A stretch of DNA of 10,526 nt, taken from the NCBI GenBank assembly GCA_030824255.1, contig JAVBYB010000564.1, positions 1-10,526 of the forward strand. Direction: 5' to 3'. The position numbers were made by a program, and so were the translations under genes. Within the stretch, counting starts at the first letter, position 1. Every line of letters starts with the position of its first letter. Shown piece after piece: positions 4,147-8,571 of this stretch. The stretch is from a bacterium. GTDB lineage: Bacteria > Pseudomonadota > Alphaproteobacteria > Caulobacterales > Hyphomonadaceae. The notes under the pieces are model-generated. The model did no database searches and had not been told where the DNA came from. It saw only the letters and a list, made by a program, of their open reading frames with translations.

Positions 4147-4155
4147 GGGGAGGAA
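4147..4155 (+). promoter_or_regulatory. Strong ribosome-binding site that fixes the start of the redox fusion gene
   Basis: GGGGAGGAA sits 3 nt (6 nt from the AGG core) before ATG 4159 and is the best Shine-Dalgarno in the window. It places the start at 4159, rejecting a frame extension of 68 codons back to 3955. That extension would overlap the GH16 gene and lacks a signal sequence at its front. Confidence 0.8.
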
Positions 4156-4158
4156 ACA

Positions 4159-6162
4159 ATGAACGCCCGCACAGTGACGACAGGCTCACTCCGTCTTGCG
4201 ATGACCTCTGTCGCAATCGCCGCGCTCGTCGCTGTAGGCGTCGCCGCCTACGGCCAGATCGCCGGCGCGAACATGGTCGCAGCCCAGGTGAAACCGGCCG
4301 ATCGCGCCGAGGACTTCCGCCTCACCGATCAGAACTCGCGCGGTTACCTGCTGAGCTACTACAAATACGCCCCGGCGATCGTCATCGTCTCGCACGCCAC
4401 GGGCTCTGCGCAGATGAACGACGCGGCCCTCACGCTCAGAAATCTGCAGGCATCGCTCAAAGGCTCCGATACGCAGCTCTTCCTCCTGAACTCCACGCCT
4501 GGCGTCACGCGCGAAGCCATCATCGCCGACATGAGGGCACTCAACCTCGACATACCCGTGCTGATGGATGAAACGCAGCTGGTCGGTGAGAGCCTTGGCG
4601 TCAGCCGCATCGCGCAGGCGCTCGTCATCGATCCCAAGACGTGGAAGGTCGCCTACTCAGGCCCCATCTCCGGCCGACTGTCCGGCAAGCCCGGCAATGA
4701 CACAACCGACTATGTGGTGGACGCCATCGCCGCGCTGTCCGCCGGCAAAGCCGTAAAGGTTACGCGCGTGGCGCTCGACACGCCGCTGCTTGCCTTCCCC
4801 AACCGCGACGCCAAGACCAGCCACGCCAACATTTCGTATGAGAAAGACGTCTCGCCCATCCTCGCGAAGAACTGCGTCGCCTGCCATTCCGAAGGCGGCA
4901 TCGGCCCGTTCGCAATGAATAGCTATGAGAGCGTGAAGCAGTGGTCCGGCATGATCCGCGAGTCGATCCGGACCGATCGGATGCCGCCCTTCCACGCGGA
5001 TCCGCATGTCGGCGCCTTCACCGGGGACATGAACCTCGCTGCAAAGGACACCCAGACGCTGGTCCACTGGATCGAGGCAGGCGCTCCGCGCGGCGCCGGT
5101 TCTGATCCGCTGAAGATCAACGCCAAGCCCGCGCCGGCATGGGAGCTGGGCGAGCCTGACTTCGTGATCGAACTACCCGCCTACGCCGTGCCTGCCTCGG
5201 GCGTGGTCGACTATCAGAACCCCGCCGTGAAAAATCCCATGCTGGAAGGCCGCTGGCTGCGCGCCGCCACTGTGAAGCCCAGCGACCGTCAGGCGGTTCA
5301 CCACCTCCTGTCGAACGGCGTGGGCGGCTATGCGGTCGGCGCTGAAACCTCGGTCTATCCGCAAGGCACCGGTACGTGGGTCGCCCCCGGCCAGACCTTC
5401 CAGTTCCAGATGCACTACACGCCCTATGGCAAGGAGACGGTCGAGAAGACGAAAGTCGGTCTCTACTTCTATCCGAAGGACGCGCCGCCCGAGATCATGC
5501 GCCGCTCGGCCGTGATCGCGAATGCAGGCATCGAGATCCCGCCGAACACAGCGCGTCACGAAGAGATCGCCTACATCACCTTCCCCGAGAAGGCGACGCT
5601 CTACTCCGTCTTCCCGCACGCCCACTATCGCGGCGACAGCATGCATGTCTCGGTGCTGAAGCCGGGATCGGACAAGGAAGAGCTGATCCTCTCCCTGCCC
5701 AAATACGATTTCAACTGGCAGCGCGGCTATGACTTCAAGACGCCGATCAAGCTCGAGCCCGGCACGCGCCTCGTCACGCGCTACGTTTACGACAATTCGA
5801 AGAATAACCCCGCCAACCCCGACCCGACGATCAAGGTCACCTGGGGCGAGCAGTCATGGGAAGAGATGCAGTACACCGCACTCGGATTCCGCTGGGATGA
5901 CGAAACGGTCGCCAACCGCAAGGACGACTATCAGAAGCGCCTCGAGGAATCCCGCGCCATGGGCATCATGGATACAAACCTCGATGGCAAGGTCGCCAAG
6001 ACCGAAGTGCGCGGGCGCATGGCGGCCATGCTCCTCGCCAACTGGGACAAGGCCGACATCGACAAGGATGGATATCTCGCCACTTCAGAAATGACCGCCA
6101 TCAACCAGGTCATGAACAGCCGCATCCGCGAAGCACAAGCCCAGCAGAGCATCGGCCAGTAG
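4159..6162 (+). CDS. Redoxin-like / cytochrome c / PHM-DBH-like copper monooxygenase / EF-hand fusion protein
   Basis: A 667-residue exported redox enzyme. Residues 1-45 hold a hydrophobic export signal or anchor (about 15-35). Residues 46-200 look like a thioredoxin/AhpC-fold domain (EDFRLTD, AIVIVSH, VLMDE, ALVIDPKTWKVAYSGPI) but contain no cysteine. Residues 225-310 form a c-type cytochrome with heme motif CVACH (239-243) and a likely axial Met in RMPPFHADP (M275). Residues about 335-580 match the ascorbate-dependent type II copper monooxygenases (PHM/DBH). The expected CuH ligands are H381, H382 and H419; the CuM ligands are H487, H489 and M570. Residues 605-616 and 633-644 are two canonical EF-hand loops (DxNxDGxxxxxE and DxDxDGxxxxxE). 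The only two cysteines are those of the heme motif. Family knowledge predicts O2-dependent hydroxylation of an unknown substrate, with electrons perhaps fed through the heme. A terminator follows directly. Confidence 0.88.
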   Translation: MNARTVTTGSLRLAMTSVAIAALVAVGVAAYGQIAGANMVAAQVKPADRAEDFRLTDQNSRGYLLSYYKYAPAIVIVSHATGSAQMNDAALTLRNLQASLKGSDTQLFLLNSTPGVTREAIIADMRALNLDIPVLMDETQLVGESLGVSRIAQALVIDPKTWKVAYSGPISGRLSGKPGNDTTDYVVDAIAALSAGKAVKVTRVALDTPLLAFPNRDAKTSHANISYEKDVSPILAKNCVACHSEGGIGPFAMNSYESVKQWSGMIRESIRTDRMPPFHADPHVGAFTGDMNLAAKDTQTLVHWIEAGAPRGAGSDPLKINAKPAPAWELGEPDFVIELPAYAVPASGVVDYQNPAVKNPMLEGRWLRAATVKPSDRQAVHHLLSNGVGGYAVGAETSVYPQGTGTWVAPGQTFQFQMHYTPYGKETVEKTKVGLYFYPKDAPPEIMRRSAVIANAGIEIPPNTARHEEIAYITFPEKATLYSVFPHAHYRGDSMHVSVLKPGSDKEELILSLPKYDFNWQRGYDFKTPIKLEPGTRLVTRYVYDNSKNNPANPDPTIKVTWGEQSWEEMQYTALGFRWDDETVANRKDDYQKRLEESRAMGIMDTNLDGKVAKTEVRGRMAAMLLANWDKADIDKDGYLATSEMTAINQVMNSRIREAQAQQSIGQ

Positions 6163-6219: not shown

Positions 6220-6289
6220 ACCCTAGCGGCGCCCCATGTCATGGACACGCCAGCCCCACGCCGGGGCGGCAGACGGAGCGTCCTTCCAG

Positions 6290-7036
6290 ATGTCGACCGC
6301 CCTTTGCGTAACCGACCTCGCCAAATCCTATGGCGGCAAGCGCGCTGTCGATGGCATCAGCTTCGATGTGCGCGGCGGCGAGCTGTACGCGCTACTTGGT
6401 CCCAACGGCGCGGGTAAGACCACAACCCTGCGCATGATCGCCGGCCTCCTGAACGCAGACGCCGGTGCGATCAACGTCTTCGGCGTCGACGCTCGGCAGG
6501 ACCCCGCCGCCGCCAAACAGCTCATCGCCTGGCTGCCGGACGAGCCCCTGCTTTATGACAAGCTGACAGCGTGGGAATATCTCGAGTTCGTAGCCGGCCT
6601 CTGGGGCGTTGATCCGAAGTCCGCGCGCGCCGACGCCGAGCATCTGCTGAAACTCCTCGGTCTGTGGGACAACCGGAACGACCGCTGCGAAACCTTCTCG
6701 CGTGGCATGAAGCAGAAAGCCGTTCTCGCCGGCGCGCTGATCCACCATCCGAAACTGTTGATGCTGGACGAGCCGCTCACCGGCCTCGACGCCGCCGCCA
6801 GCCGTCTCGTGAAAGACCTGATCCGCGAGCGTGTAGCCCAAGGCGCCGCTGTCATCCTGACTACCCACATCCTCGAAGTGGCCGAACGCATGGCCGACCG
6901 TATCGGCATCATCAAGGACGGCAAACTGTTGACCGAGGGCAGCCTCGAAGAGCTACGCAGCCACGCCGGCGCGCAGGGCCAGTCGCTGGAAGATGTCTTC
7001 CTGTCGCTCACCGGCCAGCCGCAGGGCGTCGCCTGA
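6290..7036 (+). CDS. ABC transporter ATP-binding protein (ABC-2 exporter type)
   Basis: This 248-residue nucleotide-binding subunit powers the exporter whose permease is the next gene. Walker A GPNGAGKTT is at 37-45. The Q-loop region reads AWLPDEP (80-86), without the usual Gln. The signature is FSRGM (136-140) instead of LSGGQ, as is common in DrrA/CcmA-like ATPases. Walker B LLMLDE is at 156-161, the D-loop GLD at 165-167 and the switch His at H193. ATG 6290 is chosen: the protein begins like other ABC ATPases and GGAG (6275-6278) lies 11 nt upstream. The frame allows ATG 6236, but that has no Shine-Dalgarno and lies only 16 bp past the terminator U-tract. A 5-bp hairpin (GCCCC 6253-6257 with GGGGC 6263-6267) precedes the chosen start. 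The stop codon shares one A with the permease ATG, so the two are translationally coupled. The substrate is unknown. Confidence 0.94.
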   Translation: MSTALCVTDLAKSYGGKRAVDGISFDVRGGELYALLGPNGAGKTTTLRMIAGLLNADAGAINVFGVDARQDPAAAKQLIAWLPDEPLLYDKLTAWEYLEFVAGLWGVDPKSARADAEHLLKLLGLWDNRNDRCETFSRGMKQKAVLAGALIHHPKLLMLDEPLTGLDAAASRLVKDLIRERVAQGAAVILTTHILEVAERMADRIGIIKDGKLLTEGSLEELRSHAGAQGQSLEDVFLSLTGQPQGVA

Positions 7037-8571
7037 TGAGCAAGCCCGGAAGCATCCCGTGGCTGATGTCGCACGAGTTGCGCCTGTTCTGGCGGCGCGG
7101 ACAGGGCAAGAGCAGGAGCGGCTGGCTCCTCGCCGGCTTCATCCTGTCCGTCTGGATGGTCATGAGCTTCTTCATGTTCCAGGGGCTGGGCCCGAGGCTT
7201 CCGCCCCCGCCCTACATTGAAGGCAGCGGCGATGGACTGGCGCTCGCCGCCATCGGCGTCGCCATCGCCTTCATCGGCTCCATCATGATGTCGGGCGCCG
7301 TCCTTGCCGCCGTCGACGCGATCTACACCCGCAATGATCTCGACCTGCTGCTGTCATCGCCGCTTCCCGCATGGCGCATCCTTGCCGTGCGCTCCATCGC
7401 CATCGCGATCAATGCGCTGCCGATCTACATCGGCCTTCTCGGTCCGCCACTTCTGTGGCTATCGATCTTCTCCTCGCCGCTCTGGCTCTCAGCCATCATC
7501 TTTCTGATTACGCTGGCCTTTGCGGCGACCGGCCTCGCCCTGCTGATCGTCACCGGCCTGTTCCGCCTGATCGGTCCCAAGCGCACCCGCGTCCTCGCGC
7601 AGATCTTCAGCGCCGTCGCGGGCGCTGCGATCTTCATCGGCTTCCAGTTCCTCAACCTCAACCGCCGCGACGAAGACGGCATGAGCCAGAACGAAGTCGC
7701 GCGCACGATCCTCAGCATGGACCTTGATCCCAATGCGTGGTGGCAGGCCCCCGCTCGCGCCTTCACGGGCGACATCCCGTCCACGCTCGCCTGGGTCGTG
7801 TTCGTCGCCCTGCTCTTTCCCTTCGGCGTCTACGTCTTCAGCCGCCGCTACGTATCAGACGCCGCCGCCGCATCCGCCATGGGAAGCAGCCGCAAACGTG
7901 TTGCAGATGTGCGCGTCGCCCGCGTGCGCGGCGGCCTGATGCCGACCATCATCCGCAAGGAAATCCGCCTGCTGTTGCGCGATCCTCTCCTGCTCTCGCA
8001 GGTCGGCCTGCAGCTGATCTACTTTCTGCCGCTGGCTTTCATCCTCTTTCGGCCGGGCAGCACGATGACGCTCGACGAAGCCGCCTTCGCGCCCGCTCTC
8101 ACCATCATCTCCTCCACCCTCGCCGCCAGCCTCACCTGGATCACCGTCTCCGCCGAAGACGCGCCAGACCTGCTCGCCTCGGCCCCCGTCCACGCCCGCC
8201 TCATCGACCGCGCAAAACTGCTCGCCGCCGTCCTGCCCGTGTGGGCGCTGATGACAATCCCCTTGATCGTCCTGTGGGTGCGTGATCCGTGGGCCGGCGC
8301 ATGGGCGACCAGCGGCGTGGCTGTCGCGTCGGTCTGCGCTGCAATGATCGGCCTCTGGCGCCGCGTGCCGGCATCACGCCGCGACTTCGTGCGCCGGCGC
8401 GCCAAAGGCTCGATCATGGCGGGGCTTGGCCAGGGCGTGGTGACGCTTGGCATCACCTCCAGCATCGCGCTGGGCGTCTATGGCTTGCCGTGGATGGCTC
8501 TCCTGCCGGCAATCGTCTGGCTGGCGATACTGGGCGCTCTCTACAAGCCAACGCCCAGTATCGCCGCCTAA
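7036..8571 (+). CDS. ABC-2 type exporter permease, internally duplicated
   Basis: An integral inner-membrane protein of 511 residues with about twelve hydrophobic segments (roughly 28-50, 68-95, 115-145, 148-176, 187-205, 249-269, 322-338, 350-372, 393-414, 424-440, 459-481 and 484-503). It is the transport partner of the ATPase, whose TGA overlaps this ATG by one base. The two halves look related. HELRLFWRR near 13-21 parallels KEIRLLLRD near 308-316. DLDLLLSSPLPAWRILAVR (101-119) parallels DAPDLLASAPVHARLIDRA (375-393). One chain may thus supply both halves of the transmembrane pathway. A central basic region (285-305) links them. Substrate could be lipid, glycan or drug; the sequence does not say. 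It is convergent with the dehydrogenase gene, stop codons 6 bp apart, and its last codons contain a 14-bp inverted repeat. Confidence 0.9.
   Translation: MSKPGSIPWLMSHELRLFWRRGQGKSRSGWLLAGFILSVWMVMSFFMFQGLGPRLPPPPYIEGSGDGLALAAIGVAIAFIGSIMMSGAVLAAVDAIYTRNDLDLLLSSPLPAWRILAVRSIAIAINALPIYIGLLGPPLLWLSIFSSPLWLSAIIFLITLAFAATGLALLIVTGLFRLIGPKRTRVLAQIFSAVAGAAIFIGFQFLNLNRRDEDGMSQNEVARTILSMDLDPNAWWQAPARAFTGDIPSTLAWVVFVALLFPFGVYVFSRRYVSDAAAASAMGSSRKRVADVRVARVRGGLMPTIIRKEIRLLLRDPLLLSQVGLQLIYFLPLAFILFRPGSTMTLDEAAFAPALTIISSTLAASLTWITVSAEDAPDLLASAPVHARLIDRAKLLAAVLPVWALMTIPLIVLWVRDPWAGAWATSGVAVASVCAAMIGLWRRVPASRRDFVRRRAKGSIMAGLGQGVVTLGITSSIALGVYGLPWMALLPAIVWLAILGALYKPTPSIAA
8523..8565. repeat. 14-bp perfect inverted repeat at the convergent gene ends
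   Basis: GGCGATACTGGGCG (8523-8536) and CGCCCAGTATCGCC (8552-8565) are exact reverse complements around a 15-nt loop. They lie in the last 17 codons of the permease gene and end 13 bp before the stop codon of the facing dehydrogenase gene. The hairpin can form in either transcript. No U-tract follows on either strand, so if it stops transcription it is not a standard intrinsic terminator. A further 5-bp hairpin (AAGGT 8573-8577 with ACCTT 8582-8586) spans the gap. Confidence 0.7.

Follow-up and report, generated by a model that had tools for sequence, protein, structure and literature searches.

This locus raises the question of how a copper monooxygenase could be supplied with reductant outside the bacterial cytoplasm. 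Peptidylglycine alpha-hydroxylating monooxygenase (PHM) and dopamine beta-hydroxylase (DBH), which produce animal neurohormones, hydroxylate C-H bonds with electrons from ascorbate, which would not be expected in the bacterial periplasm, where cytochromes are supplied instead. On the forward strand of the window (the whole 10,526-nucleotide stretch of DNA analysed) we identified an uninterrupted frame at 4159-6162 which, translated directly, encodes 667 amino acids. The original prediction had placed a CVACH heme site, HH/H and HAH/M copper ligand sets in PHM order and two EF-hands in this one frame. All of these were confirmed from the translation, and the residue numbers H381, H382, H419, H487, H489 and M570 proved right. 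The features are as follows:

4147..4153, forward strand: likely ribosome-binding site GGGGAGG, read directly, 5 bases 5' of ATG 4159
4159..6162, forward strand: redoxin / cytochrome c / dicopper / EF-hand protein, 667 amino acids plus stop
4159..4284, forward strand: putative N-terminal export segment, residues about 1-42 (sequence and predicted model)
4291..4758, forward strand: redoxin (thioredoxin-like) domain, residues 45-200, cysteine-free
4816..5133, forward strand: cytochrome c domain, residues about 220-325 (conserved CxxCH and MPP motifs)
4873..4887, forward strand: CVACH heme-attachment site, residues 239-243 (conserved in alignments)
4981..4983, forward strand: M275, likely axial heme ligand (invariant in alignments)
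5149..5895, forward strand: PHM/DBH-type dicopper core, residues 331-579 (structure and profile comparisons)
5299..5304, forward strand: H381-H382, first copper site (aligned via L101 to VHHMLLF of rat PHM)
5413..5415, forward strand: H419, third ligand of the first copper site (QVHY of PHM via L101; EVHY of DBH)
5617..5625, forward strand: H487-A-H489, second copper site (HTH of DBH; HTH of PHM via L101)
5866..5868, forward strand: M570, third ligand of the second copper site (aligned via L101 to DEMC of PHM)
5971..6006, forward strand: EF-hand loop 1, residues 605-616 (D605-E616; canonical pattern, profile matches to EF-hand structures)
6055..6090, forward strand: EF-hand loop 2, residues 633-644 (D633-E644; canonical pattern, profile matches to EF-hand structures)

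The open frame extends 5' to 3955, ahead of the ATG at 4159. A start from 3955 is probably not that of the gene, because GGGGAGG precedes ATG 4159 and most homologues share a start near there. The predicted model has a hydrophobic helix at residues 15-42 (low confidence), and the protein is probably exported and faces the periplasm. Attachment of heme to CxxCH takes place outside the cytoplasm, and cytochrome c assembly proteins are encoded in the genome from which the window derives.

Structure and profile comparisons were much stronger than Pfam for the window protein. Of the Pfam profiles that had been proposed as a check, Cu2_monoox_C (PF03712) rose just above its cut-off in the single protein (23.3 bits against 23), but the Cu2_monooxygen, cytochrome c and EF-hand profiles did not. 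Cu2_monooxygen (PF01082, N-terminal domain) gave no match at E <= 1, and NCBIfam gave nothing above a cut-off. Single-sequence searches of the PDB did not return PHM or DBH for the whole protein (E <= 1) or for the copper part (E <= 10); they were recovered instead by profile, by a bridging relative and by predicted fold. A profile of the copper core matched one PDB sequence at E <= 1, which was DBH (E 1.8e-4), in an alignment that puts H419 and H487/H489 on DBH histidines. The bridging relative (L101), a distant protein of 414 amino acids from another genome of the phylum, is above cut-off for both Pfam copper-domain models and matches rat PHM at E 2.8e-7 with VHH, QVHY, HxH and DEMC in register. 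It has the heme site, M275 and the six copper ligands in common with the window protein, and by this bridge each of the six ligands has a PHM counterpart by alignment. Residues 327-611 of the predicted model match PHM structures across their two-domain fold, and rat PHM (1phm, 1opm, 3mib) shows the same fold and the same order of all six ligands. The match of the predicted fold and the mapping of all six ligands support the dicopper core of the original prediction and, indirectly, the clustering of the ligands that it called for. All six are invariant in a 51-row alignment and in 200/200 rows of a wider one.

The heme c site rests on its motif. CVACH holds the only two cysteines of the whole 667-residue protein, and CxxCH arose in 0/20000 shuffles of the protein. 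The Pfam cytochrome c models remained below cut-off in the window protein (Cytochrome_CBB3, 21.7 against 27 bits; Cytochrom_C, 15.6 against 21.3 bits), so we refer to a predicted heme c site rather than to a placed cytochrome family. As in c-type cytochromes, a CxxCH motif (CVACH) and a conserved candidate for the distal ligand (M275) can both be read from the sequence.

Heme and copper residues were conserved jointly. Ten residues (C239, C242, H243, M275 and the six copper ligands) are intact in 199/200 aligned relatives, and in 203/204 when four previously dropped rows are added. The sole exception (P0115, 428 amino acids) starts inside the heme motif and lacks the first cysteine. Two other architectures keep the same residues. 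Among the best relatives of a betaproteobacterial member (L089), with both cysteines in the redoxin domain and no EF-hands, the ten are present in 120/120 proteins, and among those of L101, the minimal set with neither redoxin domain nor EF-hands, in 118/120, each list of 120 being the best matches of its search rather than a random sample, with thousands of lower matches outside the counts. The two minimal-set proteins that lack CxxCH (346 and 335 amino acids) were rejected as heme-less variants, as they look N-terminally cut. Likewise, four short frames considered as heme-less or redoxin-less members from the genus (two in G008, one each in G002 and G014) lie at contig ends and are therefore cut rather than variant. 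The pattern across these alignments says that the cytochrome c site and the dicopper core form the constant unit, to which redoxin and EF-hands are added parts. In one paralogue group, PHCHSRC replaces PHAHYRG (window-protein columns 487-492), which places two cysteines beside the second-copper histidines. This was seen in 11 of 13 loci (L010, which lies in the window's own genome on contig C312, L126-L131, L133, L134, L136 and L137); the cysteines are missing in L132, and L135 yielded no frame. These cysteines could form a disulfide or alter the copper site.

The same counts bear on the idea that the protein is a copper-binding sensor, store or chaperone with a PHM fold that has lost catalysis. 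The redoxin domain is cysteine-free and no enzyme partner consistently adjoins the gene, as such a role would allow. The six ligands, CxxCH and the methionine are nevertheless retained in 203/204 rows against a mean column identity of 52% in the 51-row alignment, a retention that fits a working active site better, and we consider the non-catalytic role very unlikely.

PHM is also the best structural match of the copper core, which speaks for a true peptidylglycine alpha-hydroxylating monooxygenase performing the first half of peptide amidation. The residues of the substrate pocket make this highly improbable. At the places of R240, N316 and Y318, which we take to be the peptide-carboxylate-binding residues of PHM, the window protein has F485, Y572 and A574 (positions found by ungapped counting from H487 and M570), and among 440 proteins of the three sets the PHM residue is found 1 time for Arg, 0 times for Asn and 26 times for Tyr (25 of them in the minimal set). 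With these residues absent, the substrate probably differs from that of PHM, and it is probably not a peptidyl-glycine. The columns neighbouring these places differ among the three sets, which together with the differing residues suggests that substrate binding has been rebuilt and that the sets may act on different compounds.

The original prediction described the redoxin fold as a part of a redox machine, which was not borne out. A thioredoxin fold is present at the N-terminus of the predicted model (the AhpC-TSA match in Pfam is below cut-off), but the catalytic cysteine of redoxin and thioredoxin enzymes was not found in the window protein outside CVACH. The domain is thus incapable of thiol chemistry, and it was ruled out as electron donor in the window protein. 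Structurally characterised redoxins matched by the profile (SMc02350, 3u5r; 2ywi; 2cvb) have a cysteine pair at alignment columns 83 (NGCP) and 209 (PGCL), both members of which are replaced in the window protein. Over 204 rows the domain has no cysteine in 171, two in 33 and one in 0 (before the four rows were added, 171 of 200 were cysteine-free and 29 had the pair), and the pair behaves as a dispensable disulfide. On a quick tree (91 rows, residues 220-582 only) the label for the pair requires 7 changes, at least 3 of them forced by starred branches; thus the pair comes and goes while the heme stays. At four loci (L025, L053, L054 and L078; one representative scanned) a separate redoxin gene lies 3' of the fusion gene on the same strand, and all four fusion proteins carry the cysteine-bearing redoxin domain.

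The two EF-hands, in turn, were supported. The protein has the paired canonical 12-residue loops of EF-hand proteins, two such loops arose in 0/20000 shuffles of it, and the loops gave profile matches to EF-hand structures. EF-hand_1 was below cut-off in the window protein; EF-hand_5 matches 24 of 51 family members at E <= 0.001.

The neighbours of the gene in the window (LepA, GH16, an ABC pair, a 3-hydroxyacyl-CoA dehydrogenase and a TetR regulator) look ordinary. Beside the ATPase at 6236-7036 lies a likely ABC permease (7036-8571, forward strand), named by its position and with no Pfam match at E <= 0.001. An open-ended frame on the reverse strand (2-895) carries many calcium-binding repeats of the RTX type (HemolysinCabind, E 8e-30). 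Neighbours were clustered over 95 stretches (the window plus 94 loci, with some overlap; 1350 called genes including family members) with a simple GC-based gene caller, which places some gene starts wrongly and overlooked the L034 family gene, and on which only the adjacency results rely. Over these stretches no consistent substrate or donor was indicated. A constant operon partner was rejected, as GH16 upstream and the ABC pair downstream recur in near orthologues only; other paralogue groups adjoin other genes (MdoG, FecCD and DUF885 among ten cluster representatives scanned). A family of about 370 amino acids recurs nearby (15 genes at 9 loci, including L049 12813-13913, reverse strand), and its representative has no Pfam match.

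In one paralogue group the large subunit gene of a molybdenum dehydrogenase lies directly 5' on the same strand, with gaps of 83-483 bases, at 8 loci (L008, L035, L045, L049, L058, L061, L071 and L079; one representative scanned). The small subunit gene precedes it at 6 of the 8, and eight genomes are represented, including the window's own, Hyphomonas ih12 and bin RI_213. This dehydrogenase could be an electron partner of that paralogue group and is offered as a lead only. As an enzyme of a kind that requires an acceptor, it also bears on a reversed flow, in which the dicopper site oxidises a substrate (or acts as a peroxygenase with H2O2) and the heme exports electrons or only tunes the site; a fused mono-heme c is equally compatible with export and import. 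Against this reading, which we consider unlikely, the ligand sets and the fold are those of O2-activating monooxygenases that require a reductant, and we know of no member of the PHM/DBH superfamily that works as a dehydrogenase.

We therefore favour, as the likely reading, an exported PHM/DBH-superfamily copper monooxygenase whose own heme c site serves as the entry point for reductant, and which probably oxidises C-H bonds with O2 using electrons from heme instead of vitamin C. In a protein loaded with heme and copper, the His/Met heme would take electrons from the respiratory pool of the periplasm, either through a soluble cytochrome c or, in certain paralogues, possibly through the molybdenum dehydrogenase, and would hand them to the first copper (H381, H382, H419). 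At the second copper (H487, H489, M570), O2 would be bound and a small molecule hydroxylated at a C-H bond, by analogy with PHM and DBH. The cysteine-free redoxin domain may act as a scaffold or docking domain, and the EF-hands may be Ca2+-binding elements that stabilise the C-terminus or the contacts it makes. That the heme replaces a soluble reductant, as originally proposed, is the best inference from the joint retention of heme ligands and copper ligands in three architectures. The accompanying description of the enzyme as self-contained was too strong: each monooxygenase turnover takes two electrons, for which a mono-heme domain is a wire rather than a source, and a donor would still be needed.

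The family is numerous. Homologue searches gave 2987 and 6167 matches at E <= 0.001, possibly overlapping and each from only about 8000 scored candidates. Among the best 80 of 487 places, the nearest relatives were Hyphomonadaceae bins at about 80% identity. Named relatives include Hyphomonadaceae, Caulobacteraceae (many of them Phenylobacterium), Parvularculaceae, Kordiimonas and some gammaproteobacterial and Burkholderiales bins, and the source names among the listed matches are often 'hypothetical protein', 'peroxiredoxin' or 'mono/diheme cytochrome c family protein'. The copper core, used as a query, matched 23/299 genomes of the order and 3/398 of a phylum draw, the window's genome in both; the family query PF03712 matched 2/299 genomes of a phylum draw, the window's among them; and among relatives of L101's genome there was a match in 1/61, that genome itself. 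Seven matches lie in the window's genome (73% complete); two of them are affected by contig ends, one being a fragment of 162 residues and the other being truncated there. Five aligned paralogues of this genome keep all ten residues, one of them ending at a contig end before the EF-hands. Every one of the 15 genus genomes in one draw, which included the window's, gave between 3 and 12 matches, counting fragments and redoxin-only matches. For L125 (G023) and for matches in G007 and G012, two frames or a stop were reported inside the match, which may reflect decay, sequencing error or a match overrunning the true end.

Compared with PHM, the window protein adds the fused heme c, redoxin and EF-hand parts and lacks the peptide-binding residues; its copper core is free of cysteine and so has none of the disulfides of PHM. 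DBH has an N-terminal DOMON domain. Compared with human DBH (4zel), the window protein has no DOMON match by Pfam at E <= 1, its N-terminal fold is a redoxin and heme c is added. The minimal bacterial cytochrome c / dicopper proteins of about 410 amino acids (L101; P0121-P0240; several named Myxococcota) share the heme site, the methionine and the six copper ligands in 118/120, differ in that no redoxin domain or EF-hands were seen, and have a lipobox-like motif (loose pattern) within the first 45 residues in 74/120. Heme donors to copper enzymes are known from heme-c-fused copper nitrite reductases and from cellobiose dehydrogenase feeding lytic polysaccharide monooxygenase; the likeness is functional only, their copper folds being unrelated to that of the window protein. 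No description of a bacterial cytochrome c / PHM fusion was found in the titles and abstract beginnings of open-licence PMC articles, a scope that makes this weak evidence that the fusion is undescribed. The copper-core superfamily and the other domains are already known; within that literature scope no mention was found of the standing heme c fusion, of its constancy over hundreds of proteins or of the sets of paralogues.

More speculatively, heme c with a PHM-type core might represent a large unstudied class of periplasmic hydroxylases and the older arrangement, from which PHM and DBH descend with ascorbate as a later reductant, and the alphaproteobacterial paralogues might have separate substrates, as a periplasmic counterpart of P450; we put this forward as a tentative possibility. 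For PHM and DBH, electron transfer between the two distant coppers and the delivery of reductant are both open questions. A bacterial form with its donor on the same chain would allow electron entry to be followed optically through the heme and would provide a soluble model system, and the many homologues would amount to a considerable capacity for oxidation to which no role has been assigned.
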